DNA of 57,886 nucleotides, from assembly GCA_903875045.1 (NCBI GenBank), contig CAIQUS010000057.1, positions 1 to 57,886 on the forward strand. Reading direction: 5' to 3'. The DNA is from an uncultured Bacteroidales bacterium (GTDB taxonomy: Bacteria > Bacteroidota > Bacteroidia > Bacteroidales > FEN-979). The notes below the pieces were generated by a model. The model did not search any database. It saw only the letters and a list, made by a program, of their open reading frames with translations, and was not told where the DNA came from. Both the position numbers and the translations under genes were made by a program. How positions within the stretch are numbered: position 1 is the first letter of the stretch; each line of letters opens with the position of its first letter. Shown here piece by piece: positions 24,434 to 45,818 of the stretch.

Positions 24434-27400
24434 CTAATCTTTTTCCGTGAGTAATCCGACCAGTGGATTTTGAGTTAATATCCTTCGGGCGGGGAAATAT
24501 ATCCATAGAAAACCATTTGCTGCGACCATCATAAGGATTCCACAAATAAATATCCAGGGGATGGAACTAACCCGGGAAATCAGCAATGGCAGAATGACCG
24601 GTATGGAGGCTATCAGCCCAAGGAGGATTCCCGATGAAAGTATTAGGAGGTGTTCAGCAAGGATCATCTTGAAAATAAATTTCCTGTGAAATCCCAATGC
24701 AACATATAGAGCCAGTTCATGCCTTCGTTGGGATATATTCCGCAGAAGCACAATACCCAATCCGATGGTGCCGATAACAATACCCAGTCCCCCGAGCAGC
24801 ATGAACACCGACAGATAAGTGTTTTCCACCGCATTGAAGGAGGCAAGTCGTTCGGATGCATGGATTGTCATCAATCCATAATCCCGGAACAGCGATTCAA
24901 GCCTTTGCGAAATAGTATCAACTTGATTTGACGGACCATCGATCAGCATCATGCGTGTACCAACGGTTGAAGGGTAATAACAACGCAACAGGCTGTCGGA
25001 AACCAGGATGTTCCCCTGGAAAACCGAGTTGTCCAAACCACCCATCAGTTTAATTTTTAGAATTTTGCCCGATTCATCCCTGTAAAACAGGGTATCTCCG
25101 ACCGATTTTCGAAGGCCCCAGGTAATGACCGTCAGATCCGCAAATCCGGGGATGACACCAGGTGCGAGGCTGCGCAATAATAGATTCCACGGCTGTGTGG
25201 GATCGACAGATGAATCGAGGTTCGTAAAGTTGAATACATTGAGACGGTTAAATACTCCCGCAGGGACACCCAATATGCCGGGCTGAGTTACCTGGTTGAG
25301 GTTCAGGCAGCTGGCGTCATCCCCGTCCAGACGGGGCAGTTGAATAAACCTGACTTGTTTAAGCACCGTTTCGTCCGATAAACCAAAAATGTCTGCGCTG
25401 TAAGGCGAGTTCAAGTCATTCAAAAATGGAAGTGTTGACTCGGCCCAAAGAAGAAATCCACCGGTTCCGGAATGTCTTGAGGTTTCGAGACCATAAAATG
25501 TTTTTCTGTTTGCCCCGGTAATGATGATGGTAAAGGTTCCCAGCGACAACAATGCCACAGCAGATATCGTTCGCATGCGATGCAGGGCGAGGGTTTTCAA
25601 TATTAGCCGGGAGAGCCGGGGGATGAGATTCGCGGGATGGATTGATCTTCTGATCAGGAAAAGGTTCAGCAGGGCTAACCCTCCGAGGAGGAGAAGACCT
25701 CCTGCTATCAGCGAAAAAGAATCATTCAGGGCTTTGCCGGAAATCATTGGCAAAAACAGCCAGCCCACAGAAAACCCAATGCCAATAGCGGCAATGACAA
25801 TGCTCGGCAGCCGGACGGGCTTGCTGAATCCTGCATTTTGAATTTCATTGGAACCTTTTACCATCGTTGACAATGGTTTCCGCAGATTTTTCCATAATAC
25901 ACCCAGCAGAACAGCCAGCGAAGCAACGATACCTGTTGTTGCGCCAGTCAGAAGTGTTGCCGGATTGATCTTCATCACCAGAAGTGAAGTATTCACCGCA
26001 TCAAGCCAGATGGTGTTCAATCCAAGGATCAGACAATTGTTGTAAAGTACACCGCCAAATGTTCCGGCGATGGCACCGGCAATGGCAACCAGCAATGCTT
26101 CGATGGACAGGACGACCAGAATGTTTCGTTTTGTGAAGCCAATGGCCGACAGAATGCCGGCTTCTGACATACGCGCCTGTGCCAGTGACCGAAATAACAT
26201 GGCTGTGAGCAGCAAGGCACTGATCACAATAAAAAAGCTCAGGCTCAGGAACAATTCTCCAAAATCGGTCGAGTTACGTGCGGCCAGTTGCCCCTCCTCA
26301 TAAACAGGCCGGAAAAATAATCCGGAATGAACCGGATTGATATTCAGCATTATGGATTGTTCAATCCGGGAAATCTCTGTTTCACGGGCATCAAACCGAA
26401 ATCCGGTATAGCTGCCAAACCGGTTTCCCCAGATTTTTTTTCCGGTATCTATTGCGATAAATGCCTTTGGTGTTCCACGGTAATCTTTCCAGTATTGTTC
26501 ATCTTTGTCACGAATTTTCTTCAGATTGATGGGTGCCCCTGTTTCCCAATCGCGGCAATTTCCGGCATCAGACATCCCGGGAAATTCAGGCATCAGAAAG
26601 CGATCTGCCAGGTTGTTCTCTAAAGGGATGACCGATTTTACCATAAACCGGCTGCTGTCTTCCCGAAGCGTGCGCAAAGGGCCCATCAGGAAATACCTCA
26701 TCGTCACTGAATCTCCGGTCTGAACGCCCAGATCCTTTGAGAGCCAGTCATTGATGATTATCTGCCCCGGTGAGATAGGTTGTTTGAGAAAAGATTCACT
26801 GGCTGCTGTTACAAAAGAATAAGGGGTTGAGTTGCCGCCATAGGAGATTGAATTTACCAGATAAGTGAGAAGGGGCTGGCAGCCGGGAATGGCCGATAAT
26901 ACGGCATTGGCGGTGGCATCATGGAAAAAGATCCGATCGGAGGTGATTTGGTATATTCCGCCGGAGGGCAGTTTCCTGATGGTCAGTCCGGCATCAGCCG
27001 GTTTCATGCAGAAATGAAGAGCACTGTCAAGCACAGGTACCATTGATCCGGATGTTCCATTATCAGTCGCAAGCAGCAGGTTGGCCCGGCCATTTAATTC
27101 CAGCAATGAAGCCAACTGTTTTAATGGAAGGAAAATGTTGTATGGGGCAGTTTGATTGTTTTTGAGGCTGAAGCGGCCCGATTGTTCATCCCCGGAGATG
27201 GCAGAAACTTTAACCCGGATTGAAACCGATGGGACCTTTTCCGAGACAAATGGCGCATCTGATGGCGCTTCCCCCTGTTTTTGCAGTCGTAACAGCAGCT
27301 CATCCCCCAGCTTCAGGTTCAGTTTTTTTGCTACATTCATACTGATAACTGCCTCATCTGTAAGGGGTAACTGAACCGGCCTGTCCCAGAGTGTTTTGAA

Positions 27401-27742
27401 CCTTTCATCGATCCCAAGGATTTGCACCTGGTTTATCCTCAGGTTTTGATCACTGTTTATGGCAATACCTGCAACCTGTAAAACGGGAGCGACAGGAATT
27501 TGAGTTTTTTCAGACAGTTCCCTGGCCAGTCCCTGTGTGAAAAACCGGTTATTCGTTTGCAGTGCGTACCTGATTTTTCCCAACCGGATGTCTGTCAGCC
27601 GCTGCAGGCTGAACCTCACCGAATCGCCTACGATCAACGCACCCGTCACCACCGCTGTACTGATCATAACCCCAGCCATCACGGCAAGGTATGGTTTGCG
27701 ATGAAACCAGAGGTTACGTAAAATCAGCCTGACCTGGTTCAT
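24434..27742 (-). CDS. Giant FtsX/MacB-type ABC transporter permease
   Basis: A 1102-aa permease. After a first helix (about 16-38) comes a MacB-like periplasmic domain, then an FtsX core of three helices (about 485-620), two or three more helices (about 640-745), a second periplasmic domain, and a C-terminal FtsX core (about 975-1090) with LLRNISQRRHELALYVALGF. It is therefore a two-module FtsX permease in one chain, unlike the 400-aa LolC/E or 650-aa MacB proteins. Its start overlaps the stop of the ATPase gene by 4 bp (ATGA at 27742-27739), so the pair forms one transporter. Such systems extract lipoproteins or export peptides and lipids by mechanotransmission. It is the last gene of the large minus-strand operon. 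Confidence 0.88.
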   Translation of the reverse strand: MNQVRLILRNLWFHRKPYLAVMAGVMISTAVVTGALIVGDSVRFSLQRLTDIRLGKIRYALQTNNRFFTQGLARELSEKTQIPVAPVLQVAGIAINSDQNLRINQVQILGIDERFKTLWDRPVQLPLTDEAVISMNVAKKLNLKLGDELLLRLQKQGEAPSDAPFVSEKVPSVSIRVKVSAISGDEQSGRFSLKNNQTAPYNIFLPLKQLASLLELNGRANLLLATDNGTSGSMVPVLDSALHFCMKPADAGLTIRKLPSGGIYQITSDRIFFHDATANAVLSAIPGCQPLLTYLVNSISYGGNSTPYSFVTAASESFLKQPISPGQIIINDWLSKDLGVQTGDSVTMRYFLMGPLRTLREDSSRFMVKSVIPLENNLADRFLMPEFPGMSDAGNCRDWETGAPINLKKIRDKDEQYWKDYRGTPKAFIAIDTGKKIWGNRFGSYTGFRFDARETEISRIEQSIMLNINPVHSGLFFRPVYEEGQLAARNSTDFGELFLSLSFFIVISALLLTAMLFRSLAQARMSEAGILSAIGFTKRNILVVLSIEALLVAIAGAIAGTFGGVLYNNCLILGLNTIWLDAVNTSLLVMKINPATLLTGATTGIVASLAVLLGVLWKNLRKPLSTMVKGSNEIQNAGFSKPVRLPSIVIAAIGIGFSVGWLFLPMISGKALNDSFSLIAGGLLLLGGLALLNLFLIRRSIHPANLIPRLSRLILKTLALHRMRTISAVALLSLGTFTIIITGANRKTFYGLETSRHSGTGGFLLWAESTLPFLNDLNSPYSADIFGLSDETVLKQVRFIQLPRLDGDDASCLNLNQVTQPGILGVPAGVFNRLNVFNFTNLDSSVDPTQPWNLLLRSLAPGVIPGFADLTVITWGLRKSVGDTLFYRDESGKILKIKLMGGLDNSVFQGNILVSDSLLRCYYPSTVGTRMMLIDGPSNQVDTISQRLESLFRDYGLMTIHASERLASFNAVENTYLSVFMLLGGLGIVIGTIGLGIVLLRNISQRRHELALYVALGFHRKFIFKMILAEHLLILSSGILLGLIASIPVILPLLISRVSSIPWIFICGILMMVAANGFLWIYFPARRILTQNPLVGLLTEKD

Positions 27743-28431
27743 AATTGTGGCATCAGATGGAGTTTCCCGGCAGTTAGCTGGTATATTTTTCCCATACGCT
27801 TCGCGAGTTCCATTGAATGGGTAACAACCACCACAGCGAGACCATTTTCATGGTTCAATTCGGCAAACAACTCTCCGAGCCGGCTGGCGTTCTCCGCATC
27901 CAGCGAGCCGGTTGGTTCATCGGCCAGCAGCAGGAGGGGCTTGTTGACAAGCGCCCTGACGACAGCAGCCCGCTGACATTCACCAACAGACAATTCCCAT
28001 GGGCGCTGATGAATCTGTTTTTTCAATCCGACCCGTTCAATTAACAAATGTGCATGTTCCCGGGCAATTTTCCGCATGGATTTGTCTTTAACCGGTAAAG
28101 CCGGTAAAAGGACGTTTTCGATCAGTGTTAGCTGAGGCAGCAAGTGGTGCATCTGGAAAACAAAGCCGATAAACTTATTCCTATGGTTTGCCAGTTGGTT
28201 TTCGTTCATGGTTTCAACCGGGATGCCGTTGATGATCACCTTTCCGGTGGTTGGCTGATCCAGGGTTCCAAGAATATTCAGCAGGGTGCTTTTCCCCGAA
28301 CCGGACGGCCCCACGATGGCAATTGAATCCTTCTCATCGATTGAGAGCGAAAGCTCATGTAAAATTACATTTCGAATTTCTGAGCCAGATTGCCCATAGT
28401 GTTTGGAGATGTTGTGAAGTTCTGCTAACAT
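27739..28431 (-). CDS. ABC transporter ATPase (LolD/MacB type)
   Basis: A 230-aa nucleotide-binding subunit of typical LolD length: Walker A GPSGSGKST (41-49), Q loop in FVFQMHHLLPQ, Walker B LLLLADEPTGSLD and H loop VVVTHS. The signature motif is LSVGECQRAAVVRAL: LSVGE replaces the usual LSGGQ, an uncommon change in the residues that contact ATP across the dimer. The gene follows the glycosyltransferase by 3 bp and overlaps the permease start, so it works with the giant FtsX-type permease. The substrate is unknown; position in the redox operon suggests a link with its exported proteins. Confidence 0.92.
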   Translation of the reverse strand: MLAELHNISKHYGQSGSEIRNVILHELSLSIDEKDSIAIVGPSGSGKSTLLNILGTLDQPTTGKVIINGIPVETMNENQLANHRNKFIGFVFQMHHLLPQLTLIENVLLPALPVKDKSMRKIAREHAHLLIERVGLKKQIHQRPWELSVGECQRAAVVRALVNKPLLLLADEPTGSLDAENASRLGELFAELNHENGLAVVVVTHSMELAKRMGKIYQLTAGKLHLMPQL

Positions 28432-28434
28432 GTG

Positions 28435-29724
28435 TTATCGGATTATTCTTTCGTAAACTTCCACCATCTTTCTGGTAAGTATTCTGCTATCGAACACATC
28501 TTCTGCCGATTTTCGTCCAAGCCTGCTCATCTTTTCAAGCGCAGCACGGTCTGACAGGACTTCTGATAGTTTGGTTGCCAGTGTTTCAGCGGTATTCGGA
28601 TGGTAAATAATACCGCCGCCTGTTGTTTGAATGATCTCCGGGAAAGCGCCAAGATGGGGCTGGACAAGTGGTACTCCTGATGCAAGTGCTTCGATCTGGT
28701 ATAGTCCGAAAGCCTCTCCCTTGAGAACAGGTACTGATAAAACCGATAGTTTTTCAAAAAAACCATAAAGTGCAGGGGTGGTGAAGTCGGACTGCATCTC
28801 AAAATCCTCAAGAATGTTATGCAACTTCAACTTATGAAGTTGTAGCTGAAGAAATGCCTGATCGTCACCGGTCATGCCACCGGTGGCTTTTAATTGAAGC
28901 GTGCTGAACCGGGGATCGGATTTCAGGAGGATAAATGCATCAACAAGGATTTCAAAACCATTCTCCTCACAGATCCTTGATAAATAGCCGATGGCAGGAG
29001 GTGAATCCGCAGGCAGGGAGTAGGGGTATCTTTCCGGATTTATTCCGATATGAACAACATTCATTTTTTCAGAAGGAATATTCATCTTTTCCTTCATCAC
29101 ATTTGCAAAATAGGAACTTACAGCAATAAATGCATCCACATCCCGGCTTTTTTCCGACATCAGATCCCAGATTTTTTTTCGCCATAAAGGTTCCATTGCA
29201 TCAACCCAGACATCTTCATCCTGTAAAGAAAATATCACAGGAACCTTTACCTCTTCCCTGATTTGTTTGGCCATTCCCATTAACAGGGCATTGGAAAAAT
29301 GAACAACATCCGGTTTCTGATGGTTTTTAAGGAAATCAACCAGCCGGTCAAGTTCGTGATTCTGGTGTCCCTGTTGTCCAAGGAGCATTGATTCGGTCAG
29401 TTTTTCCAACCCGTGTGCCCTTGTGGAACCTGATTTTTTTGCCGCAAATTTCAATACAGGTTTTGAGTCCAGCATGTTTTCCAGCCAATCAGGCATGTGC
29501 CGGAACAGCGCAAACTGTTGCTTGAGATAAATATTGACTGCACCATAAAACACAGGGACATCATCGTTTGTTTTTTCTCCTGTCAGTGCAAGCGGAAGGT
29601 ACATCGGCAGGGTAACAGCATCATGGCCCAATTGCCGCAGGGAAGTAACATAAGCACTATCACGCAGGCAGTTTCCGCAATAGAAGGTGCCTCCAAAACC
29701 AGGAACAATATTTACGATTTTCAT
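28435..29724 (-). CDS. Glycosyltransferase family 4-like protein
   Basis: A 429-aa GT-B enzyme. The N-terminal domain begins MKIVNIVPGFGG and carries PDVVHFSNALL (about 140-150); the C-terminal donor domain has AIGYLSRICEENG (about 244-256) and GEAFGLYQIEALASGVPLV, the E-x7-E nucleotide-sugar motif of GT4. It is cytoplasmic and transfers a sugar from a nucleotide donor to an unknown acceptor. It lies 3 bp from each neighbour (PQQ propeller upstream, ABC ATPase downstream) and so belongs to the same unit. It might glycosylate an operon product or a lipid carried by the ABC transporter; that is inference. Confidence 0.85.
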   Translation of the reverse strand: MKIVNIVPGFGGTFYCGNCLRDSAYVTSLRQLGHDAVTLPMYLPLALTGEKTNDDVPVFYGAVNIYLKQQFALFRHMPDWLENMLDSKPVLKFAAKKSGSTRAHGLEKLTESMLLGQQGHQNHELDRLVDFLKNHQKPDVVHFSNALLMGMAKQIREEVKVPVIFSLQDEDVWVDAMEPLWRKKIWDLMSEKSRDVDAFIAVSSYFANVMKEKMNIPSEKMNVVHIGINPERYPYSLPADSPPAIGYLSRICEENGFEILVDAFILLKSDPRFSTLQLKATGGMTGDDQAFLQLQLHKLKLHNILEDFEMQSDFTTPALYGFFEKLSVLSVPVLKGEAFGLYQIEALASGVPLVQPHLGAFPEIIQTTGGGIIYHPNTAETLATKLSEVLSDRAALEKMSRLGRKSAEDVFDSRILTRKMVEVYERIIR

Positions 29725-29727
29725 AGT

Positions 29728-30861
29728 TTACTGACCAAATACATATACCTTTCCATCCTGTGCCCCGACAACGATCATTTTCGAGGTAACTGCGGGTGTG
29801 CTGAAAATGGCGCTTCCGATTTCATACACCCAGACTTCGGTCCCCGTGCTGATATCAATGACATGGAGCCGGCCATCCGTTGATGCTGCAATCACAAGGT
29901 TACCAGCAATAACCGGTGAAGCGTCGACTTTACCAAGTGTTTTAAACTTCCATTGCAACTGCCCGTTCACCGCGTCAAAACAATAGATGTAACGGTTTTG
30001 GGATCCGGTGATCACCTTCCCTGATCCGATGGCCGGTGAAGCAAGAAATGGCCCGCCCCCTTCAGTTTTCCACAGGATTTTTTTTGTCTTCAGATCGAAA
30101 CAATGGAATACGCCATCATAATTGCCAAAATAAACTTTATCGCCCAGGATGGCGGCGGATGCAGGAATGTAGGTTCCCAATTCAATTTTATCAGGCGCTT
30201 TTCCGTCATACGTGTTCACAAGGTGCAAAAAGCCGTCGCATCCGCCGAATATTGCGAATTTTCCGCTGATGGCGGGTGAACCGTTGATAAAATTTCCAGA
30301 TTCATATTTCCATAAAGCTTTTCCGGTGAGGACATCAACAGCGTGAAGATTGAAATCGTAACTTCCAACCAGGATGGAAGTGCTTTTCCTGTCCTCGCTG
30401 ATTGAAAAGTTGGCGGCCCCGGAAATCTGGCTATCGGCGGAGTACTTCCATCTCACCGCACCCGTTTTTGCATTCAGTGCAAACAGGTTTCCTGCCATGG
30501 TCCCGGCATAAATTGTATTTCCGAGGATCAGCGGAGGAGCCTCTACTGAGTTGCCCGCATTGAATTTCCATTTGAGTTTACCTGTTGAATTGATGGCATA
30601 GATATACCCGTCATTTGATCCGATAAACACCGTGCCATCCCAGATCACAGCAGATGATTTAATGGCATCCCCGGTTTTAAATGTCCAGAGGAGACGGAAG
30701 GGTGGTTTGATTAAAACCGGTGCATTGCCTGTTAATTGGGCATCGCCGCGGAAGGATGGCCAGCAGTCGCTGCTTTTAACCTGTGCAAAAAGATTGGAAA
30801 TCCCAATAATGGATAGAAAAATCAGTATGGTTAACCGATCGCGTACTGGAAAAGTCATCAT
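29728..30861 (-). CDS. Exported PQQ-like beta-propeller protein
   Basis: A 377-aa protein with a signal peptide (ending SNLFAQ, about 27) followed by about seven repeats of the form GxVYAxNAxTGxxxWKY, for example VFIGSNDGYIYAIN and LFALNAKTGAVRWKY. The repeats match the PQQ_2/BamB-like fold. The family name does not prove PQQ binding, and no haem motif is present. The gene starts inside the stop of the FeS flavoprotein (ATGA at 30861-30858). It is the shortest of the six propellers in this operon and lacks their QWRG opening, having CWPSFRGDAQ instead. Confidence 0.85.
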   Translation of the reverse strand: MMTFPVRDRLTILIFLSIIGISNLFAQVKSSDCWPSFRGDAQLTGNAPVLIKPPFRLLWTFKTGDAIKSSAVIWDGTVFIGSNDGYIYAINSTGKLKWKFNAGNSVEAPPLILGNTIYAGTMAGNLFALNAKTGAVRWKYSADSQISGAANFSISEDRKSTSILVGSYDFNLHAVDVLTGKALWKYESGNFINGSPAISGKFAIFGGCDGFLHLVNTYDGKAPDKIELGTYIPASAAILGDKVYFGNYDGVFHCFDLKTKKILWKTEGGGPFLASPAIGSGKVITGSQNRYIYCFDAVNGQLQWKFKTLGKVDASPVIAGNLVIAASTDGRLHVIDISTGTEVWVYEIGSAIFSTPAVTSKMIVVGAQDGKVYVFGQ

Positions 30862-32447
30862 AGATTTCTTTCCTCCTTTTCTTTAAAGGCAAGGGCACCT
30901 GTTGGACACGCTTCCACACATTCCGCGGCAGTTTTCGTCAGTGCCAGGCTGATAGTTTCATTGAAAGGTACTGAGATTCGAACATCAAATCCCCTGCCTG
31001 CAAAGGTAAGCCCGATGGATTCGCCATGTTTTTGAGTGATTTCAACGCATAAGCCGCACCGGATGCACTTTTCAGTTTCGTAAACCACCACCTCATGCTG
31101 AACTTCTTTGGTGATTGGTTTTCTTTCCGCCCCTGCAAACCTTTTCCGGTTGGCATCATATTCTTCCGAGTACAGCCTGAGTTTGCAACTCAATGGCTTC
31201 CTGCAATCGCAATGCATGCAGCGTTTTGCTTCATGGATGGCCTCCTGCCGGCTGAAGCCCGATAAATTCTCTTCAGAGGGATCAATCCGGTGATCAGGTA
31301 TGCTCTCTTTCAAATATTCTGCCCATTCGGGTTCAAGTAAATGACCAATGGCTGATATTGATTTATGGTGTATATCCCTGACTGATTTTTGTTTATGCAA
31401 ACCCAGATAAAGTTCTATCTCCCGGGCTGCCATTTTTCCCTGTGCCGCCGAATGGACCGCCATTTTTTGTTCCCGGATGATATTTCCGCAGGCAAAAACC
31501 CCGGGAATGCTGGTTGTAAAGCTCTTTTTGTTGATAAAAGCCCCGTGTTCATCCGGTTGAATGCCGAAAAGATCTGTCAGATTTTCTGTCATGTTCCCCG
31601 TTGCCAGCACTATTGCATCATATTTTCCAAGGATGGTTTGCTGAAATAACTCGCTGGTAATACGGATTCCCAAGCGGAATTCAGCGCCCATTTTGCGGAT
31701 GTTCCCGATTTCAGTTTCAAGTATGTTTGTTGGAAGCTGATCCAAGGGAATCTGGTATTGCATGGCACCGCCGGCTTTTTCATGTTGGTCATACAATACA
31801 CATTCATTTCCTGATCGAAGGAGGTAGAAGGCTGCTGAAAGTCCGGCAGGTCCGGTGCCAATGATGGCGGTTTTTTTACCATTCCTCACCGGAATATCGG
31901 TTACTGCGGGAGTTTCCTTAACTGCATATTGAGCAGCCGACCGCTTTAAAAGGCAAATGGAAACCGCCTGATCAATGGGTTTTCGCTTGCAGGCCTTTTC
32001 GCAGGGTGCCGGGCAAATGTATCCCAAAATGAGGGGTATGGCAATTTCTTCCCTCACGACACGCAGCGCCTTCTCAAAGTTGCCCGAAGCAATCAGCCGG
32101 TTCATCAATGGGATGTCCATAAATGCCGGACATGACAACCTGCATGGCGCTTCACAATCACCGAGATGGTCGCTGAGCAGCAATTCGAGCGCCTCCCGGC
32201 GTGCCTCTTTTATTTCATCAGAACTGGTAAGTATGTTCAGCCCTTCTGCAACCGGCATGGCACACGATGGTATCAGATTTCCGCGGTCAAGATCCTTCAC
32301 CAGGCAAACCATGCATGAAGGATGGTTTGAAAATCCCGGGCGGAAACACATCGATGGAATAGAGATGCCAAGGATGGCAGCCGCTTCCATTACTGAAATG
32401 CCCTCCTTTACCTCAACGTGGATATGATCGATGGTCAGTTTTACCAT
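30858..32447 (-). CDS. NuoG-N/GltD-type FeS flavoprotein oxidoreductase
   Basis: A 529-aa cytoplasmic protein. The N-terminal [2Fe-2S] domain (C34, C45, C48, C62) is NuoG/HydA-like. A Cys-rich segment follows (H94, C98, C102, C106) as in GltD/Fer4_20 domains, then a pyridine-nucleotide FAD domain (TAIIGTGPAGLSAAFYL at about 195-211; SIPGVFACGNI near 325). The C-terminus holds a ferredoxin-like part with CIRCGLCVE and CVEACPTGALAF. It lacks an H-cluster domain and the molybdopterin-like part of NuoG. I use the ATG at 32447, 1 bp after the NuoEF stop; the ATG at 32471 would overlap it. Together with the NuoE-NuoF fusion it could form an NAD(P)H-linked multi-cofactor enzyme; its exact reaction is unknown. 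Confidence 0.85.
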   Translation of the reverse strand: MVKLTIDHIHVEVKEGISVMEAAAILGISIPSMCFRPGFSNHPSCMVCLVKDLDRGNLIPSCAMPVAEGLNILTSSDEIKEARREALELLLSDHLGDCEAPCRLSCPAFMDIPLMNRLIASGNFEKALRVVREEIAIPLILGYICPAPCEKACKRKPIDQAVSICLLKRSAAQYAVKETPAVTDIPVRNGKKTAIIGTGPAGLSAAFYLLRSGNECVLYDQHEKAGGAMQYQIPLDQLPTNILETEIGNIRKMGAEFRLGIRITSELFQQTILGKYDAIVLATGNMTENLTDLFGIQPDEHGAFINKKSFTTSIPGVFACGNIIREQKMAVHSAAQGKMAAREIELYLGLHKQKSVRDIHHKSISAIGHLLEPEWAEYLKESIPDHRIDPSEENLSGFSRQEAIHEAKRCMHCDCRKPLSCKLRLYSEEYDANRKRFAGAERKPITKEVQHEVVVYETEKCIRCGLCVEITQKHGESIGLTFAGRGFDVRISVPFNETISLALTKTAAECVEACPTGALAFKEKEERNL

Positions 32448-32448
32448 G

Positions 32449-34806: not shown

Positions 34807-34866
34807 TTTTTGCAGGACGAATGCATGTGTTTGTGGTCTCTTTTCTTGCTTTTTTACGATTTGATA

Positions 34867-35331: not shown

Positions 35332-35360
35332 TGTTGTTGTTTTTGATTCGGTTATTCTTT

Positions 35361-38494: not shown

Positions 38495-39084
38495 GGACTT
38501 TGCGGTGACTTTTTTTCTTCGGCAATTTGTTTTAGCAAGTATGGCTGGCTCAAAGGGACCCGGCTGAACGCATCAGCCGGACAATTCCTGGCAATCGAAC
38601 ATTGGTTGCAGTTTACGCAGATATTGTGCCTTACCTGCAATTGCAGTGACCCGTTACCAAAAGATCCGCACCCTTTTACGCATTTACCGCAACCGATGCA
38701 GAGAGGCTCATCAATGGTATATTCAAAGAATGGATCCTCAATAAACTTTCTTTTGATCGCATTGGTCGGACAAAGTTGATTTTCGGCGGCAGTCGTAAGA
38801 GTTTTGGTCTCCGGTTTGAAATATCCGCCACACAAATCGCAGTATCCGCACATGGCATATACATGAACGCATTTAACCGCCGATGGGGTCAATACGCAAT
38901 TGGTAGCGCAACGACCACATTGAATACATTTTGCAGGGTCAAGTTGCCACACTGTCTGACCTGTAATGGCCTTCTTTGCAACCAAAGCAGCCACACCCCC
39001 GATTCCTATCAGAACGGAAGCCCGCACACCAGTCGAAAGAAACTTTCGCCGGTTGATCTTTGAGCTATTTTCCGGTTCTTCCAT
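38491..39084 (-). CDS. NapG-like exported ferredoxin with Tat-like signal
   Basis: A 197-aa protein. The start at 39084 gives a twin-arginine-like signal, NRRKFLSTG followed by a hydrophobic stretch (SVLIGIGGVAALVA). The mature part has several [4Fe-4S] motifs: CIQCGRCATNC, CVHVYAMCGYCDLCGG, LCPTNAI, CIGCGKCVKGC and CVNCNQCSIARNCP, which is the four-cluster NapG layout. A longer reading from 39195 would place 37 unrelated residues before the signal and overlap the small Cys-rich gene further. It lies directly before the NapH-like gene (4-bp overlap), as napG does in nap operons. It should carry electrons on the periplasmic face to an unidentified acceptor. Confidence 0.85.
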   Translation of the reverse strand: MEEPENSSKINRRKFLSTGVRASVLIGIGGVAALVAKKAITGQTVWQLDPAKCIQCGRCATNCVLTPSAVKCVHVYAMCGYCDLCGGYFKPETKTLTTAAENQLCPTNAIKRKFIEDPFFEYTIDEPLCIGCGKCVKGCGSFGNGSLQLQVRHNICVNCNQCSIARNCPADAFSRVPLSQPYLLKQIAEEKKSPQSP

Positions 39085-39316
39085 TTGCTTCGTTGGTTTT
39101 GCGACACTTAGCTTTTTCGAGACGATACTTGTCCGCTTCAGGTAATATACAACTGTTTGACGATTTGCAATGACCGCATGAATAGTTTTCCACACAATCT
39201 TTGGCTCCGGTTCTGCGAAGGGTCAACACCCCTCCCAGCAGGGTTAGCGAAGCAAAAATGCCACCCCTGATCAGCGTTTGTATGAACTGTCGTCTCTTTT
39301 GCATAGACCGCTTCAT
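39065..39316 (-). CDS. Small Cys-rich exported or anchored protein
   Basis: An 83-aa protein. The N-terminus has KRRQFIQTLIRGG and a hydrophobic segment (IFASLTLLGGVLTL), resembling a Tat signal or signal anchor. The mature part is only about 50 residues and holds five cysteines in the pattern C-x5-C-x2-C-x5-C-x14-C, enough to bind one FeS cluster or a metal. Its stop lies 20 bp inside the NapG-like gene, so translation is coupled. It lies 12 bp after the NHL gene. I do not recognise the family; the position between the NHL protein and the ferredoxin suggests a small electron carrier or maturation factor. Confidence 0.65.
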   Translation of the reverse strand: MKRSMQKRRQFIQTLIRGGIFASLTLLGGVLTLRRTGAKDCVENYSCGHCKSSNSCILPEADKYRLEKAKCRKTNEANGRTGK

Positions 39317-39328
39317 TTTATTAAGAGA

Positions 39329-40300
39329 TCAATGTTGTTTTTTCAAAATAAACACCCTGATTTGTTTTTTCTCAGGATCGAGCACAAGGATCCGATCCTT
39401 CGAATCAACTGCCACATCAAGACCCTTTGTCCCTTCTATAAAAGAATCAGGGCCAGCCACCACCCATTTAAAATCACCATTTGGTGCGTAAACCTTCACA
39501 CGTTCAATACCTTTTTCGGTAGTGACAAAGGAACCATCTGAAAGTATGGCAAAATTGGAGGGGTTGCAGCATCCGCAAAATCCTTCCATCGACATGGTTG
39601 ATACGCCCCATGATGAGGTTAAATTTCCCTCAAAATTATATTGTTCGAAACGATGGCGGCCAGGATTCACAACCCAAAGCTCTCCGGTACGGCCAATGGC
39701 CAGATCGAAATACGGGCTTGGTACCACAAATCCGGGAATGTTTCTGGCAGGATCTTTTTCTCCGATCTTTTTTATAATATTTCCATTCAGGTCATAATGA
39801 TACACAACCTTGTTGCCGGCATCGGCAGCAAACACATCATTGCCTGTAACTGCAATGGATGTAATAACGGCATTCTCACCGCAGGTTTTCCATTTTTTCA
39901 GTAGCTTCCCTGATTTATCGAATATTTCGATATGTTCCATCATACCCAGATAGATCCGGCCATCCTGATCTACATATAGGCAGTTGGCGGTTCCTTCTAT
40001 GGAGAATTTTGTTTCAGGTTTCCCGGATGGATCAAATATTTCGATGCCATTTTCCCCGCAGATGAAAATGCGGTCGGAATGATCAAGGGCTATACCATTT
40101 ATAGTTGTCGTACCGGGGATGATTTGCTGTACCTCGGCAAACACGATGAGAGAGGTGTCACCTGCTTTGAGCGACTTTATGTCATAATCATAAGGATTCA
40201 CATTGTCATCAGGTTTGTTGAAAAACAAATCCCACGACATGAACAGGATGGCTGCCAGTAAAAGTGCCAGGGCTCCAATCAGGACAATCTTTTTTCTCAT
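39329..40300 (-). CDS. Membrane-anchored NHL-repeat beta-propeller protein
   Basis: A 323-aa protein starting MRKKIVLIGALALLLA, with one N-terminal membrane helix, then a six-bladed NHL-type propeller (for example DGRIYLGMMEHIEIFDKSGKLL and TGELWVVNPGRHRFEQYN, each shown in part). Near residue 238 is a Cys cluster, GFCGCCNPSNFAI, unusual for NHL blades and a candidate metal or FeS site. ATG 40300 lies 1 bp after the stop of the propeller gene upstream; the longer reading from 40345 only adds residues that overlap that gene. A periplasmic scaffold or redox-protein partner is likely. Confidence 0.82.
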   Translation of the reverse strand: MRKKIVLIGALALLLAAILFMSWDLFFNKPDDNVNPYDYDIKSLKAGDTSLIVFAEVQQIIPGTTTINGIALDHSDRIFICGENGIEIFDPSGKPETKFSIEGTANCLYVDQDGRIYLGMMEHIEIFDKSGKLLKKWKTCGENAVITSIAVTGNDVFAADAGNKVVYHYDLNGNIIKKIGEKDPARNIPGFVVPSPYFDLAIGRTGELWVVNPGRHRFEQYNFEGNLTSSWGVSTMSMEGFCGCCNPSNFAILSDGSFVTTEKGIERVKVYAPNGDFKWVVAGPDSFIEGTKGLDVAVDSKDRILVLDPEKKQIRVFILKKQH

Positions 40301-40301
40301 G

Positions 40302-41732
40302 TCAGTGCGCTTTGATGTCGATACATACCATTTGTTTTGAATCACGCATTAACAGAAAACCGCCGGTAATGGCAATTGGGCCCCATGAATCCTGTCCGTC
40401 AATGATCCGGGTTTTGTCGAGTACGGTAAATCGCGACGGGGTTACACGGGCAATGGTCATTTCCCCGTCATCGTTCAGAATAAAGAATTTCCCGTCTGCC
40501 ACAATGTAGGGTCCCAATCCGAACCGGTTGGTTTTGCCACTGCTCATCAAATCTTTTTTACAATCATCGGCTTTATAACACACGAATTGGTTGCGCAGGC
40601 TGCCGGCATCCTTGGGCTGAATGCCATAAATGTAGCTGTTGAGAAAAACCGGTGATTGTTGCTCCGATGCCAGCCCTTCCTGTGGCTTGTATTTCTGCAG
40701 CACTTTAATGTTGTATTTTCCATCTTTTGCAGTTACCTGAAGAAGTGCGGATCCCGCCCCATATCCGGCCGTTACAAAAATCTTTCCATCATTGAGTATT
40801 ACGGGGGATGGTGCGATGACCGAAGGAGCAAACTCTGATGTTTCCCACAATACTTTGCCCTTGTCACCCCCGGATGCCGAAATCCCGCAGATGCCCCCAA
40901 TCGCAAAATACACATACATCTTTTTACCATCAAGTGTCATTGGCATCACTGATGAATGCGACATTTTCCATGTTTTGGGATTGGGTGTTTCCCAAAGTTT
41001 TTTACCCGTATTACAATCAATCGCTACAAGGAGTGCCTTCCCTCCGGGGGCAATAATGGCCGTGTCGTTGTCGAGCAGTGGGCATTGCCCGGTATACCAG
41101 AAAGGAATTTCTGTTCCGTATTCCCTCACCAGGTCGAGACCCCACAAAAAATCACCATTTACACGGTTAACACACATTACCTGACATTTTGGGCCAATGG
41201 TCAGAACAAATTTCGCATTCACCGATGGAACTGTTCTCGACAGTCCATGATTACGTTTGAGGTGTACCTTGTATCCGCGCCGCCAGAGTTCCTCCCCGGT
41301 CGACAGTAAGAAACAACGCAACTGGTCTGATTTCCCGGTTTCATCGTAATCAAGTAAATAGACCTTCCCGTCATACACTGCAGGTGCTGCATGACCCTCG
41401 CCGAGGCTTTTTTTCCAAAGAATAACAGGTCCGCTTTTTCCCCATTTTTCAATCAGCCGGACCGGTTCTTTGCTGATGTTATCAAAATCCGGCCCCCTGA
41501 AGTTTGTCCATCGGGTGCCCGGAAAATCCGGCGATGCCCGATAGAATTTGAATTCAGATCCGATGATTACCGGTTTCCCGGGAGCCATTGCCCCTTTTTT
41601 TCTGTTATCCATGCCGGGTATGGAGACAGTGAAATTTTTGACGGGATCATAAAAAAACCACCATCCCAGCAGTACAATTGCAGACAGGATGAAGATTAAA
41701 AGCAGATATCGTGTGGGTAACCTCTTGAACAT
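40302..41732 (-). CDS. Membrane-anchored PQQ-like propeller, RWTNFRGPDFDNI type
   Basis: A 476-aa protein. From ATG 41732 it begins MFKRLPTRYLLLI and forms one N-terminal membrane helix (about 9-28), then a periplasmic PQQ-like propeller. Blades include EGHAAPAVYDGKVYLLDYD, GEELWRRGYKV, NGDFLWGLDLV and TGKKLWETPNP. The opening FRGPDFDNI corresponds to QWRGPxRDGIY of the other paralogues but is more diverged, and this copy is longer. The upstream ATG at 41777 would overlap the preceding gene by 17 bp. No haem motif; cofactor unknown. Confidence 0.84.
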   Translation of the reverse strand: MFKRLPTRYLLLIFILSAIVLLGWWFFYDPVKNFTVSIPGMDNRKKGAMAPGKPVIIGSEFKFYRASPDFPGTRWTNFRGPDFDNISKEPVRLIEKWGKSGPVILWKKSLGEGHAAPAVYDGKVYLLDYDETGKSDQLRCFLLSTGEELWRRGYKVHLKRNHGLSRTVPSVNAKFVLTIGPKCQVMCVNRVNGDFLWGLDLVREYGTEIPFWYTGQCPLLDNDTAIIAPGGKALLVAIDCNTGKKLWETPNPKTWKMSHSSVMPMTLDGKKMYVYFAIGGICGISASGGDKGKVLWETSEFAPSVIAPSPVILNDGKIFVTAGYGAGSALLQVTAKDGKYNIKVLQKYKPQEGLASEQQSPVFLNSYIYGIQPKDAGSLRNQFVCYKADDCKKDLMSSGKTNRFGLGPYIVADGKFFILNDDGEMTIARVTPSRFTVLDKTRIIDGQDSWGPIAITGGFLLMRDSKQMVCIDIKAH

Positions 41733-41760
41733 GGAAAGATAAACGCTTAATACAACCAGA

Positions 41761-43002
41761 TCACTTTCCCCTGACATCGAATGCCATCAGCGCATTCCCA
41801 TGTCTTACATATAAAACGCCGTTGTGAATGACGGGATGCGAAAAATGTTCCTTGGTTCCCGCTGTTATCTTGAACGAACCAGTCTGTGACATTTTTCCCG
41901 GACCTGGTTTTATCAGTTTGACTTCACCTTTTTGATTGTAGTAGTAAAGCATGCTGTCGGCCAAAATGATGGACCCCACTCCGCATTTCAAGGTATCGGT
42001 AACATTACCAGTGGTAGCATCAAGGCTTTTCAGCTGCTTCTTTTCCGAAACGCAAGAGTAGAGGATGTTACCTTGTTTGATAAAACCACCCATGTAATTG
42101 TCGATCGTTTTATTGCGCCATACCTGCCTGATTTCTTTTCCATCGGCAGATAATTCAAGTTTTACAGCACCATTCCCGTCACCGGCAAAATAGTAAATGA
42201 ATCCCTTGTCATAAAAAACGGTGTTGCTATGGGTGTCGCCATTACCGGGTTTACGCTCAGCTACCGGAATATTGTCCTGTGGATGGGTCCAAAGCAATTC
42301 ACCAGTTGCGGCATCAATGCCAAGTAGTGAATAGGCAGTGAAGGTAACCAGCACATGCCGGTTGAACAGTTTTATCAGATATGGTGAATTATATCCCGGA
42401 ATTTCACCCATGCCTTTGCAAATCCAGATAATTTTTCCGGTAAACCTGTTCATCGCAACCACATTGGTGTCTTTGCCGCCGGGCACCAGAAAAATCTTAT
42501 CCCCGTCAATCAGTGATGATTCTGCATGACCGAACAGGGTAAATCTGCCATGTAAATCATGGATCATATCAACAGACCATTTTTTAGCGCCGCTTCCCGC
42601 CTCAAAACAGGCCACATCCCCCAAGCCTGAGCACACATATATCAAATCTCCCACTACAGTTGGTGCGCAACGTGAGCCCTGATAGTTTACAACCCATTCA
42701 TTGCCGTATTCCGATTTCCAAACCAATTTGCCCTGAGGGGTAAAGGCAAAAAGATATCCGGTGGTGTCAATTTCTCCGGCAACGTAAATTCTGTCGGATG
42801 TAACAACCGGTGATCCGTAACCGCTGCCAATGATTTCGCTTTTCCAAAGCATGACCGGCCCTTCTGCGGGCCAGGATTTTAACAGATTTTTTTCAGAATA
42901 AAATCCATCGCGTTCCAAGCCGCGCCATTGGGCGGTTGTTTGAAGATAACAAGGAATGGTAAGGATTGCCAGACATGTCAGGAGAAAGAATCTTTTTTTC
43001 AT
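41761..43002 (-). CDS. Exported PQQ-like propeller, QWRGLERDGFY type
   Basis: A 413-aa protein. ATG 43002 gives the signal peptide MKKRFFLLTCLAILTIP; starting at 43068 would add 22 residues and run into the previous gene. After QWRGLERDGFY come about seven PQQ-like blades (GKLVWKSEYGNEW, TGKIIWICKGMG, TGELLWTHPQD). The order of motifs matches the two preceding genes along their whole length, so the three are tandem duplicates. No PQQ-site or haem can be shown. Probably periplasmic or at the outer membrane. Confidence 0.85.
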   Translation of the reverse strand: MKKRFFLLTCLAILTIPCYLQTTAQWRGLERDGFYSEKNLLKSWPAEGPVMLWKSEIIGSGYGSPVVTSDRIYVAGEIDTTGYLFAFTPQGKLVWKSEYGNEWVVNYQGSRCAPTVVGDLIYVCSGLGDVACFEAGSGAKKWSVDMIHDLHGRFTLFGHAESSLIDGDKIFLVPGGKDTNVVAMNRFTGKIIWICKGMGEIPGYNSPYLIKLFNRHVLVTFTAYSLLGIDAATGELLWTHPQDNIPVAERKPGNGDTHSNTVFYDKGFIYYFAGDGNGAVKLELSADGKEIRQVWRNKTIDNYMGGFIKQGNILYSCVSEKKQLKSLDATTGNVTDTLKCGVGSIILADSMLYYYNQKGEVKLIKPGPGKMSQTGSFKITAGTKEHFSHPVIHNGVLYVRHGNALMAFDVRGK

Positions 43003-43027
43003 TCGGAGTTTTTTTGATGATTTAACG

Positions 43028-44290
43028 CTATTTTTTTCTGAGATCAAATGACATGAGAACATCCCCACGCCTGATATAGAGGATTCCGTTATTAATTTCA
43101 GGATGTGACCAGCAGGGTCCTTTGCCCCCGGGGATTTTAAAACTGCCTTTGAGATCGAATTTCAATGGATTTGGTTTCACCAATCCGACATTGCCGTTTT
43201 TTTCATCGAAAAGATATAACATGCCGTCACATGAAATGATCGAACCTTTGGTCTGCCACTTATGGTCGTACTTGGCTTTTCCGGTATTCCAATCGATGCA
43301 GCACCAATTGCCGCGGCTGTTGTCAAGCCAGTTTGAACCGTAAATATAACCATCATACAGAACCACGCCACCGTGATGACAATCAAGAATGGTGTCAGTC
43401 CATGCAAGTTTGATCGACGAAGCATCTTCAGACAGTTTAAACATGGCCCCGACATGGTCATATCCGCCGGTGACATATAAAAATCCATCTTTGTAAAGCG
43501 GGGTAATGGTATTTGTTTGAGGTGCACCAGGCCATACTTTCAGACTTTTTTCCGGCATGAAGGCTGCATAATTGTATTTCCATAGTATTTTCCCGTTGGA
43601 GGGATCCACTCCGATCAGGTTATTGGCCATCAGTGTAACGATAACCCGTTTGTCGCCATGGATGATCAACCTGGGAGAAACATAGGCACTGGTATCGTTC
43701 AGACTTTCCGTCTCCCAGACTGTTTCACCGGTATTTTTATCCAGGGCAACCATACAGGTCCGTTGTCCGGCAGGGGTATAAATGACCATATTGTCGACCA
43801 GAAGAAGAGATTCACATACACCCCAGTCTCCGTAGGCTGCACCAAATTTCTTTGCTGCATCGAAGCTCCATTTGGTTTTTCCATCGCTGGCATTGACACA
43901 GTTGATGGTACCAAGGCCGCTGAGCACATAAACAAATCCATTTTGGAGAGTTGGTGTGCACCGTGTTTCGGGGAAGGAACTATTCCATGACGGGCCGAAA
44001 GGAACTTCCCAGATAATATCACCTTTCATATTCAGTGCCGAAAGATAATCGGTAGAGTCTTTCATGCCGGTTACATATATGCTGTTGCCATCTGTAACCG
44101 CTGAGGAATAACCTTTCCCAATTCCACTTTGGGACCAGATCAGCGTAGGGCCCTCTGCAGGCCATTCCTTAAGCAAACCTGTTCCTGGATAAATCCCGTC
44201 CCGGTTCGGGCCCCGCCATTGCGAGGTAACCTGCGACCATCCCCAAAATGGAAGAAGTGAAACGATGCTGTATAGAATAATTTTCTTCAT
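43028..44290 (-). CDS. Exported PQQ-like propeller, QWRGPNRDGIY type
   Basis: A 420-aa protein with signal peptide MKKIILYSIVSLLPFWGWSQ, then QWRGPNRDGIY, GLLKEWPAEGPTLIW and PQQ-like blades such as TGETVWETESL and NGKILWKYNY, ending with RRGDVLMSFDLRKK. The start lies 2 bp after the stop of the first propeller gene. It is a paralogue of both neighbours. No catalytic or haem motif was seen. Confidence 0.86.
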   Translation of the reverse strand: MKKIILYSIVSLLPFWGWSQVTSQWRGPNRDGIYPGTGLLKEWPAEGPTLIWSQSGIGKGYSSAVTDGNSIYVTGMKDSTDYLSALNMKGDIIWEVPFGPSWNSSFPETRCTPTLQNGFVYVLSGLGTINCVNASDGKTKWSFDAAKKFGAAYGDWGVCESLLLVDNMVIYTPAGQRTCMVALDKNTGETVWETESLNDTSAYVSPRLIIHGDKRVIVTLMANNLIGVDPSNGKILWKYNYAAFMPEKSLKVWPGAPQTNTITPLYKDGFLYVTGGYDHVGAMFKLSEDASSIKLAWTDTILDCHHGGVVLYDGYIYGSNWLDNSRGNWCCIDWNTGKAKYDHKWQTKGSIISCDGMLYLFDEKNGNVGLVKPNPLKFDLKGSFKIPGGKGPCWSHPEINNGILYIRRGDVLMSFDLRKK

Positions 44291-44292
44291 AA

Positions 44293-45510
44293 CTATTTAT
44301 TCCTGAGATCATAAACCATCAGCGAGGTCCCGTGACGTACAAAAAGCCTCCCATGCCCGATAACCAAATGAGCCCAATGCTGATCAGCCCCATAAGGGAC
44401 ATTGAAGGCACTAATCTTTTTGAAGGAATTCGCCAGGGGTTCAGCAAGGACTATTTCCCCATTGTCACCATATAAATACAACATGCCATCGGCATAAATG
44501 ATATTCCCTCTGCCGGTTATTTTTTCGGAAAACATGCTGGTCCCTGTCTTCCAGTCGAGACAGTACCAGGCTTTACCCGAATCATCAGAGCCGAAAATTT
44601 TCTCATTGATTAACACAAAACCACCCATCCGGTTATCAATATTTGTGTTTCTCCATATCTCCTGAACAGAGCTGCCATCCTCTGATACTTTTAGCATCAC
44701 ACCACCTTTTCCATAACCGGATACACAATATAAAAACCCCTTATAAAACAGTGGGGTATTTGCATGGACGGAGTATTTGTTCGGCTGGTCATGGCTCCAT
44801 AGAAGGTTACCGTTTTCGGTGTCAATTCCAAGGATGGAACTGGCTGTTTGAGTAACCAGGATGTTTTTTTTCGGCAGTTTGATCAATGCCGGTGATCCGT
44901 AGGCACTTGGTTCACCTTTCCCTTTGCTCTTCCAGATCAGTTTGCCGGTATTGGGATCAAGAGCAATGATATTGTTTTCAGTACCTCCAACAGTGCAAAA
45001 AAGTTTGTTCCCGTCGATCAGCAGATTCTCAGTCACACCCCATTTGATATTTGGACCCTGGTAATCTTTCAGCACATCGACACTCCAAACGAAGTCTCCG
45101 TTAATAGAATTACGGCAAACCAATTTTCCGAAGCCGCTCAACTGATAAATTTTCCCGTTGTGGACAAGAGGCGTGCTCCTGACTCCGGGCCAGCTTTCGG
45201 TCCATTCCTCTCCATAAGGTACCTTCCAGACCAATTTCCCGTCAAGGTCAAAACAGAAAATGTATCCGATTCCTTCGATAATCCCGGCAGTATATGCACG
45301 ATCATTGGTTACGGCTGCGGAAGAGTGTCCTTCACCTAATCCATCAAAGTGCCAAAGCAGGGCAGGACCTGCATCCGGCCATTTTTTTAATAATCCTTTA
45401 TCATTGTAAATACCATCCCGCGCGGGACCACGCCACTGGGCCGTTTCCTGGGCGTAAGTAATCTGGCATGTCAGACACGTAAGGCTTAGTAACAGAATGA
45501 TTCTTTTCAT
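44293..45510 (-). CDS. Exported PQQ-like propeller, first gene of the large operon
   Basis: A 405-aa protein. ATG 45510 begins MKRIILLLSLTCLTC, a signal peptide cut near TYAQ; the longer reading from 45561 would add 17 residues without family support. The mature protein opens QWRGPARDGIY, then GLLKKWPDAGPALLW, followed by PQQ-like blades such as DGKLVWKVPYGEEW, TGKLIWKSKGKGE and NGNLLWSHDQPN. The C-terminus RHGTSLMVYDLRNK is shared with the next two genes. It is the promoter-proximal member of the 16-gene run. A candidate promoter lies about 85 bp upstream. Confidence 0.86.
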   Translation of the reverse strand: MKRIILLLSLTCLTCQITYAQETAQWRGPARDGIYNDKGLLKKWPDAGPALLWHFDGLGEGHSSAAVTNDRAYTAGIIEGIGYIFCFDLDGKLVWKVPYGEEWTESWPGVRSTPLVHNGKIYQLSGFGKLVCRNSINGDFVWSVDVLKDYQGPNIKWGVTENLLIDGNKLFCTVGGTENNIIALDPNTGKLIWKSKGKGEPSAYGSPALIKLPKKNILVTQTASSILGIDTENGNLLWSHDQPNKYSVHANTPLFYKGFLYCVSGYGKGGVMLKVSEDGSSVQEIWRNTNIDNRMGGFVLINEKIFGSDDSGKAWYCLDWKTGTSMFSEKITGRGNIIYADGMLYLYGDNGEIVLAEPLANSFKKISAFNVPYGADQHWAHLVIGHGRLFVRHGTSLMVYDLRNK

Positions 45511-45603: not shown

Positions 45604-45783
45604 AAACAAATTATCATATCATTCATTCAATTCCATGAAGTTCACAGGTAAATGGCAATATCCCGGGAAATCAGATCTAAATCAGGAATCCAGGATTTGT
45701 TCATAAATAAATTTCCAAGTCCGCTGATATATTTCAAATGATGTGTACCTTGGAGCCATGAATCAGCAGGAGTGTGCACATGA

Positions 45784-45818
45784 CGCGTCACCCGTCACGC
45801 GTCACGCGTCACGCACAT
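45784..45818 (+). repeat. Period-7 tandem repeat, CGCGTCA word
   Basis: Five heptamers in register: cgcgtca, cccgtca, cgcgtca, cgcgtca and cgcacat. Unlike other word repeats here it is GC-rich and contains palindromic ACGCGT cores. Confidence 0.75.

Follow-up and report, generated by a model that had tools for sequence, protein, structure and literature searches.

Polyferredoxins of the NapGH, MauMN and NosR types serve periplasmic oxidoreductases. In excerpts of PMC8238504, NapH-like proteins are described as modular, feeding reductases or draining oxidases and linking the membrane to several periplasmic redox enzymes, including ExaA and NirS. On the cytosolic side, excerpts of PMC9304861 describe the Bfu complexes either as soluble enzymes or as components of pumps that resemble complex I or Mbh, with cores that take many third-substrate modules; the InterPro list given there assigns 51K FMN, SLBB, NADH_4Fe-4S and ferredoxin domains to BfuB and a NuoE-like [2Fe-2S] domain to BfuC. 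In the StnC subunit, two Rossmann folds form the pocket that holds NADPH (excerpt of PMC10482914). Modules of both kinds occur together in a gene run at positions 24434-45510 of contig CAIQUS010000057.1, from an uncultured Bacteroidales bacterium (assembly GCA_903875045.1; 5.96 Mb in 253 contigs); the whole stretch analysed, 57,886 nucleotides long, is called the window here. The modules are known but their assembly is new, and it constitutes a real redox system that crosses phyla. An earlier note on this DNA, made from the letters alone, knew of no described system with this gene set, and indeed no title or displayed abstract describing it was found in searches of the open-licence PMC literature.

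We propose, at about even odds (a probability near 0.5), that the operon encodes a single membrane-spanning redox complex, in which electrons would pass from NADH and ferredoxin to a NapH-like protein, on to a NapG-like protein and finally to anchored propellers. By comparison of loci, the constant part of the operon is made up of seven long genes plus, in most of the loci checked, a small open reading frame (ORF), arranged in the order PQQ_D - NHL - (small Cys ORF) - NapG - NapH - PQQ_E - NuoEF - GltD-like (PQQ, pyrroloquinoline quinone):

40302-41732, minus strand: PQQ_D, predicted membrane-anchored BamB-like propeller, core gene 1 and candidate terminal site (PF13360, E 6.9e-17)
39329-40300, minus strand: NHL, predicted membrane-anchored NHL propeller, core gene 2 (PF01436)
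39065-39316, minus strand: small four-cysteine protein of 83 aa, the sixteenth gene of the run, like a twin-arginine translocation (Tat) substrate (RR-x-F, a hydrophobic stretch and C-x5-C-x2-C-x5-C)
38491-39084, minus strand: NapG-like putative periplasmic polyferredoxin with Tat-like signal and 16 conserved cysteines (start re-assigned to the ATG at 39084)
37211-38494, minus strand: NapH-like transmembrane polyferredoxin (Fer4_5 over cut-off; NapH/MauN below the curated cut-off)
35361-37214, minus strand: PQQ_E, core propeller with an N-terminal hydrophobic (membrane) part (Pfam, alignments, locus comparison)
32449-34806, minus strand: NuoE-NuoF fusion, BfuC-BfuB-like, with NADH/flavin mononucleotide (FMN), [2Fe-2S], [4Fe-4S] and C-terminal 2x[4Fe-4S] sites (PF01257, PF01512, PF10589, Fer4)
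30858-32471, minus strand: NuoG-N/GltD-like protein, a BfuA/StnC-like subunit lacking the NADP-binding Rossmann domain (PDB matches 9bov, 8oh5, 9n5u)

All sixteen genes of the run are on the minus strand. If the likely start codons are used, neighbouring genes overlap by up to 23 bp or are up to 60 bp apart, and ATGA overlaps are present at 27739, 30858, 37211 and 38491. The earlier note had given the same number of genes, the single strand, gaps of at most 60 bp and these four overlaps; the overlaps are there in the sequence, and the rest holds once the cysteine-rich ORF at 39065-39316 is counted. A count of fifteen genes, which would leave 133 bp empty inside the run, was dropped because this ORF occupies that space. 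Pfam, run on all sixteen proteins, and NCBIfam, run on ten, agree with the content that had been described: six PQQ-like propellers (PQQ_2 proteins starting at 29728, 35361, 40302, 41761, 43028 and 44293), one NHL propeller, NapG- and NapH-like proteins, the NuoE-NuoF fusion, the NuoG-N/GltD-like protein, a MaoC hydratase, a glycosyltransferase and an ABC exporter. The same searches matched no catalytic domain of NapA, NosZ, hydrogenase or cytochrome in the operon proteins, which upholds the reported absence of the first three and of multihaem cytochromes. NCBIfam matches to hydrogenase, formate dehydrogenase and NosR models were far below cut-off and arose via common Fe-S domains.

The gene order is not the product of chance. 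The seven long core genes are complete and colinear in 41 of the 44 distinct loci with enough flank, defined as at least 4.5 kb upstream and at least 7 kb downstream; 21 of the 65 distinct NapH loci were left out for short flanks. In the three exceptions, the GltD-like gene and PQQ_F lie on the other side and strand (G163), the genes from PQQ_E onward are not nearby (G180), or the stretch stops within NuoEF (L055). Conserved synteny across Bacteroidota was the check that the earlier note had set for itself, and the colinear core is found not only there but in Planctomycetota and Armatimonadota as well. A scan of contigs with the NapH-like protein gave 28 loci, 18 from Bacteroidales or other Bacteroidota, two each from Planctomycetes, Armatimonadetes/Armatimonadota and Zipacnadia (a class of Armatimonadota), one from a further bacterium and three from Lokiarchaea; the last (L026-L028) hold only remote NapH homologs and were left out of later counts. 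At E < 1e-100, NapH is present in 35 of 61 relatives, the window's own genome counted. Of 149 genomes sampled from the window's order, 26 carry PQQ_D, as do 30 of 294 sampled from the phylum of the planctomycete G186 (the genome of locus L021), so the unit is not rare. In a midpoint-rooted tree of PQQ_D, the Bacteroidota sequences (48, together with one from the planctomycete draw) stand apart from the rest with support of 0.96 and 1.0, a pattern that would suit an old unit with few transfers. The one from the planctomycete draw, at L131 (G635:C300), has 53% identity and falls inside the Bacteroidota clade; it represents either a transfer or a misbinned contig. Two planctomycete carriers, G751 and G711, each have a contig nearly the length of the genome, so a cultured carrier may exist, in which case the system may be open to testing.

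Residue conservation in the propellers, the polyferredoxins and the glycosyltransferase was read from alignments whose rows came from the fetched loci and are not a random sample (query coverage 75% or 50-80%, no stops); for PQQ_D, NHL, NapG and NapH, identical sequences were also excluded. The 785-aa NuoEF protein comprises a NuoE part, a second thioredoxin-like [2Fe-2S] region, a NuoF part and a C-terminal 2x[4Fe-4S] domain. PF01512, PF10589, Fer4 and PF01257 are over cut-off and SLBB reaches 24.2 bits against a cut-off of 27; with what we take to be the Pfam equivalents of the Bfu InterPro domains, the protein carries the BfuB/BfuC set. Among solved structures it is closest to chain B of 9n5u (NfnB), of 9bov and of 8oh5 (E 5e-203 to 3e-199), and Nfn- and Stn-type enzymes rank ahead of hydrogenases and complex I in the PDB. 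All 25 cysteine and histidine positions checked are present in the window's protein, and 22 of them are invariant in 52 sequences. The other three are C188 (kept in 48 of the 52, serine in four), C223 (kept in 47, serine in five), both replaced only in the planctomycete draw, and C651 (kept in 49, glycine in three).

In the GltD-like protein, Fer2_4 and Fer4_20 are over cut-off and Fer4_Nqo3 scores 25.4 bits against 27, giving it the 2Fe-2S and 4Fe-4S domains of BfuA. It aligns to StnC-type chains in two main blocks, between which about 130 target residues are unmatched (288 to 421 of 9bov chain A); the segment at 285-330 measures 6-67 aa in 41 sequences and 44-47 aa in 36 of these. The pair of Rossmann folds that would enclose an NADP(H) site was not found in comparison with 9bov and 8oh5 and across the 41 sequences, and one fold remains; the missing second fold makes NADP an unlikely third partner of the module. 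The GxGxxG glycines G205, G207 and G210 are invariant in the 41 sequences, as are 18 of the 19 listed cysteines and histidines. The residue equivalent to StnC R239 is Q245 in the window's protein and is variable across 26 sequences.

The likeness to the Stn/Nfn-Bfu transhydrogenases (StnABC of Sporomusa ovata, 8oh5; NfnABC, 9n5u) thus lies in the NuoE, NuoF and NuoG-N/GltD modules, most cluster cysteines and the best PDB matches. Here, however, NuoE and NuoF form one protein, neither the NADP-binding Rossmann domain nor the large C-terminus resembling FdhF is present, and the operon adds membrane and periplasmic partners. Judged by sequence, NuoEF and the GltD-like protein form a Bfu/Stn-type electron-bifurcation module and not one of complex-I type; the fusion and the NuoG-N/GltD protein had been recognised correctly in the earlier note. 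In Bfu enzymes, a C-terminal 2x[4Fe-4S] domain like the one here serves ferredoxin, which points to ferredoxin as the probable second cytosolic partner.

The membrane step would be provided by the NapH-like protein, which has 15 cysteines invariant in 65 sequences. These sequences share two CxxxCP pairs (C141/C145 and C229/C233) and ferredoxin motifs at C257-C267 and C405-C415, the pattern of a NapH-type membrane protein. Solved relatives were recovered by sequence search for its ferredoxin parts only, and weakly for NapG. The NapG-like protein has 12 cysteines invariant and four more kept at 95% or above in 59 sequences. The CxxxCP motifs and the Tat-like NapG-like ferredoxin are what the pair shares with the NapGH, MauMN and NosR systems. 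The distance from them is considerable, on the other hand: the NapH-like protein scores 42.7 bits against a cut-off of 213.05 in the curated NapH/MauN model (NCBIfam), neither an FMN-binding domain nor a terminal enzyme of a known kind is present here, and the relay is tied to an NADH/ferredoxin-type module in place of quinol. Selenocysteine in NapH relatives was considered and rejected, the in-frame TGA in seven of them being the terminator after a CPxKS-type ending. The likeness to the NapH-like systems of PMC8238504 is that of a modular protein placed between the membrane and periplasmic redox enzymes; the clusters in the excerpts of that paper are defined by flavinylation, whereas no FMN-binding or ApbE domain was matched in the sixteen operon proteins (Pfam, E 0.001, a search that covered the operon proteins alone). 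In the main text of PMC8238504, the words propeller, PQQ and polyferredoxin have no occurrences.

In Bacteroidota and Armatimonadota, equivalents of the small cysteine ORF occupy the place between the NHL and NapG genes. The protein has no Pfam match. Its motif was seen in 33 of 47 scanned rows, the window's own copy counted, by a crude scan that missed 14 rows; on re-check, the ORF was present in 15 of 27 contexts (10 of 15 planctomycete and 5 of 12 Bacteroidota). In some genomes, such as those of L052, L053 and L059, the small domain is fused to the N-terminus of NapG.

What, then, would receive the electrons? That the operon lacks a terminal reductase, as the earlier note stated, is correct for the known families, but a candidate terminal module is present in the form of two anchored propellers with invariant polar or cysteine residues. 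PQQ_D (numbered by the 491-aa ORF 40302-41777) gave an AlphaFold (AF) model with a pLDDT of 85.5, whose top Foldseek matches are BamB and tetrathionate hydrolase. All 71 aligned sequences keep R181, Q231, C232, N266, H274 and Q373; most of the invariant residues appear to lie near the starts of blade strands, by conserved prolines, and would thus face the central channel. C155, C202 and C485 occupy an ordinary blade position. The NHL protein (numbered by the 338-aa ORF 39329-40345) was modelled with a pLDDT of 89.1 and matches NHL domains best; its vicinal cysteines C259-C260, P262 and E277-K278 are invariant in 62 sequences. In both models, the N-terminal helices can be read as membrane anchors. 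The six PQQ_D residues, and C259, C260 and P262 of NHL, are therefore offered as candidate terminal sites. The PQQ-like beta-propeller fold is shared with PQQ-dependent dehydrogenases and BamB; ExaA and NirS are presumably propeller enzymes too. Against this likeness, the three propellers scanned with NCBIfam all fell far below every curated cut-off, and PQQ_D has its own invariant residues and the putative anchor.

Most likely, electrons of NADH and ferredoxin exit via the NapH-like polyferredoxin to the periplasmic NapG and the anchored propellers, where we infer both the partner and the direction. The end of the GltD-like subunit that carries FAD and [4Fe-4S], free of NADP, would dock on NapH, and confurcation of NADH and reduced ferredoxin would push low-potential electrons via NapH and NapG into the periplasm without quinone or cytochrome; a terminal site on PQQ_D and NHL would then reduce a periplasmic or membrane substrate. 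The earlier note had considered a path from NADH through a membrane polyferredoxin to a periplasmic ferredoxin plausible, and the present results support it, with ferredoxin added as a probable second cytosolic partner. Excerpts of PMC9304861 give about -280 mV for NADH and about -500 mV for ferredoxin under physiological conditions and -74 mV for menaquinone, so joint use of the two donors would supply electrons well below menaquinone. If true, a Bfu enzyme wired to a NapH-like relay would be a new route for low-potential electrons past the inner membrane of anaerobes, and the periplasm would receive electrons below the menaquinol potential without quinone, flavinylation or haem. A more specific version is put forward only tentatively: a Bfu enzyme that has a transmembrane polyferredoxin as third partner and carries out confurcation across the membrane, with the twin propeller (PQQ_D and the CCNP-type NHL) as a terminal reductase of unknown class that might act, in some lineages, on a dedicated cyclic terpenoid.

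Outside the core, PQQ_A, PQQ_B, PQQ_C, PQQ_F, the glycosyltransferase and the ABC exporter differ between lineages, as judged by comparison of loci:

44293-45510, minus strand: PQQ_A, putative exported propeller, the operon's first gene (Pfam)
43028-44290, minus strand: PQQ_B, putative exported propeller, lineage-variable paralogue (Pfam, locus comparison)
41761-42999 (start codon approximate), minus strand: PQQ_C, putative exported propeller, lineage-variable paralogue (Pfam, locus comparison)
34867-35331, minus strand: MaoC-like hydratase, probable passenger (Pfam, locus comparison)
29728-30861, minus strand: PQQ_F, putative exported BamB/ACSF4-like propeller without anchor, accessory (Pfam, locus comparison)
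28435-29724, minus strand: GT4-type glycosyltransferase, accessory (Pfam, NCBIfam, alignment)
27739-28431, minus strand: ABC ATPase, accessory (Pfam)
24434-27742, minus strand: FtsX/MacB-type ABC permease, accessory (Pfam)

Among the 44 loci, same-strand genes near the core include PQQ_F in at least 27, the glycosyltransferase in at least 27 and the ABC ATPase in at least 19, all lower bounds, since many stretches end early. The MaoC gene, which the earlier note had counted as a member of the set, lies near the core in only two of the 65 distinct NapH loci (the window and L003), some of which are cut short, and is a probable passenger. A MaoC-like gene is also present in G171, on a contig with PQQ_D and without NapH. 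The glycosyltransferase has a conserved YCGNC near its N-terminus, with C16 and C19 in 18 of 18 sequences, which looks unusual for a GT4 enzyme.

A second module, for which no description was found in searches of the open-licence PMC literature, is linked to the core in some genomes. In the window's genome it is the following run:

G000:C12:46524-52934 (= L068:10525-16935): five genes, encoding a ferredoxin, a radical SAM/SPASM protein, a DUF116-polyprenyl synthetase fusion, a toroid protein and a DXDD cyclase

A DXDD squalene-hopene-cyclase-like protein is encoded upstream of the core in the Armatimonadota locus L024, in locus L025 and in the Bacteroidales genome G059; DUF116 is fused to a polyprenyl synthetase in L024 and G059, and a matching gene lies further out in G190 (L091). 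PF13243 and PF13249 are over cut-off in the cyclases of L024, L025 and L063, and PF13243 in the copy of the window's genome. The class II motif D366-A-D-D369 is invariant in ten aligned cyclases. PF13243 was found in seven of the 149 order genomes, all within the 26 with PQQ_D (p 2.3e-6, kinship ignored), and the cyclase in seven of the 61 relatives, all among the 35 NapH-positive ones (p 0.015). The radical SAM protein at more than 500 bits marks the same seven order genomes, while two more, without PQQ_D, score 221 and 251 bits; DUF116 alone, in 17 of the 149 (12 of them core-positive), is less specific than the cyclase. Four of nine core-carrying genomes from the NapH scan have PF13243, and two of these are planctomycetes that also have ordinary-looking squalene-hopene cyclases. 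The two modules are at most 16 kb apart in five of the 65 distinct NapH loci. In G615, the DUF116-prenyl synthase, toroid protein, cyclase, core, PQQ_F, glycosyltransferase and ABC genes form one run, and in the planctomycete locus L088, PQQ_F-glycosyltransferase-ABC follow the terpenoid genes. The terpenoid module is optional, and it was ruled out as an obligate part of the system, since 19 of the 26 core carriers in the order have no cyclase. In the subset of genomes that have it, the substrate or carrier would probably be an exported terpenoid made by the DUF116-prenyl synthase, DXDD cyclase and radical SAM proteins, and the other propellers, the glycosyltransferase and the ABC pair would handle its delivery. 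At L069:5773-12343 (G147:C23), an FtsX-like permease, an ABC ATPase and two PQQ_D-like propellers stand directly before a terpenoid-type module, along with a pair resembling a histidine kinase and response regulator (by eye).

Could the electrons flow inward instead? PQQ_D or another propeller would then be a periplasmic dehydrogenase whose electrons pass from NapG to NapH and the Bfu module, to be bifurcated to NAD+ and ferredoxin. The PQQ-like fold of PQQ_D would fit, and excerpts of the literature offer both a NapH-like protein clustered with the alcohol oxidase ExaA (PMC8238504) and Bfu enzymes that are considered reversible (PMC9304861). PQQ_D is over cut-off in no quinoprotein dehydrogenase model, however, and PqqC was unmatched in 37 genomes, a result that does not show its absence, since no control gave a match either. 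Moreover, the donor for bifurcation to NAD+ and ferredoxin must have a potential close to that of H2 or formate, and sites of quinoprotein type do not get that low. Inward flow seems unlikely. Much the same weight can be given to the idea that the whole system is a terpenoid glycolipid pathway, with a prenyl chain, class II cyclisation, a radical SAM step, glycosylation, export by the ABC pair and, in the periplasm, a reduction or desaturation carried out by the core. The confinement of the cyclase to core-positive genomes in both samples, the short distances between the modules, the gene order of L088 and the invariant DADD all speak for it; but with 19 of 26 order carriers and 28 of 35 NapH-positive relatives lacking a cyclase, this would not be the general purpose unless the other genomes use a standard lipid.

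Cytochrome-free extracellular electron transfer, to propellers at the outer surface or to a dedicated isoprenoid carrier, is improbable. The analogy is with flavin-based extracellular electron transfer, which has its own quinone genes, and the NADH input, the membrane polyferredoxin, the exported propellers and the dedicated prenyl synthase of some genomes would all be accommodated. Pfam, however, identified neither a gene for an outer-membrane conduit in the operon nor a redox cofactor domain in the unanchored propellers, and the prenyl synthase is optional. That MaoC, PQQ_A-C, the glycosyltransferase and the ABC genes come and go might even suggest that unrelated genes lie side by side by chance, or that the operon is specific to a lineage and its genes share no function, but 41 of 44 colinear cores in three phyla and a tree largely structured by phylum leave this with hardly any credibility.

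Several observations nevertheless count against the proposed outward-directed complex. In a draw of 395 genomes across the window's phylum, mostly from other classes, PQQ_D scored only in the window's own genome; the system is patchy. The replacements at C188, C223 and C651 of NuoEF indicate that some of the sequences lack one N-terminal [2Fe-2S] site or one ligand of a [4Fe-4S] cluster, Q245 in place of StnC R239 points to an altered FAD site, and C155, C202 and C485 of PQQ_D may be structural. The cyclase is missing from most core-positive genomes of the order, and in the window's genus 15 of 19 genomes have none. The accessory genes do not adjoin the core in many Planctomycetota, so the substrate there may differ. 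Finally, docking on NapH, outward flow, a terminal site on the propellers and a role for terpenoids are all steps that we infer.

As for the surroundings of the operon, Rfam at its gathering threshold gave no RNA element in the window, and sigma-70-like sites, the promoter type covered by the scan, were at background (26 found, 31.0 expected). Terminator-like sites numbered 28, against 21.0 +/- 4.9 in shuffled sequences. In L016 and L048, of one genus, a long gene for a PAS-type hybrid sensor kinase (904-1115 aa by eye) is inserted between PQQ_E and NuoEF. Upstream of the window's operon, short direct repeats of GTGACGC type were seen by eye at 45780-45815. They are followed by an AHSA1-like gene on the plus strand (45888-46268) and, on the minus strand (46296-46718), a gene for a small, apparently exported protein with repeated PVTPxEADFED-like segments; genes of similar size and place, unaligned, are found beside the operon in five and four loci, respectively. 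A PcrB-family gene (geranylgeranylglyceryl phosphate synthase-like) lies near the operon on the same strand, at 49333-50061, and this order is kept in L006.

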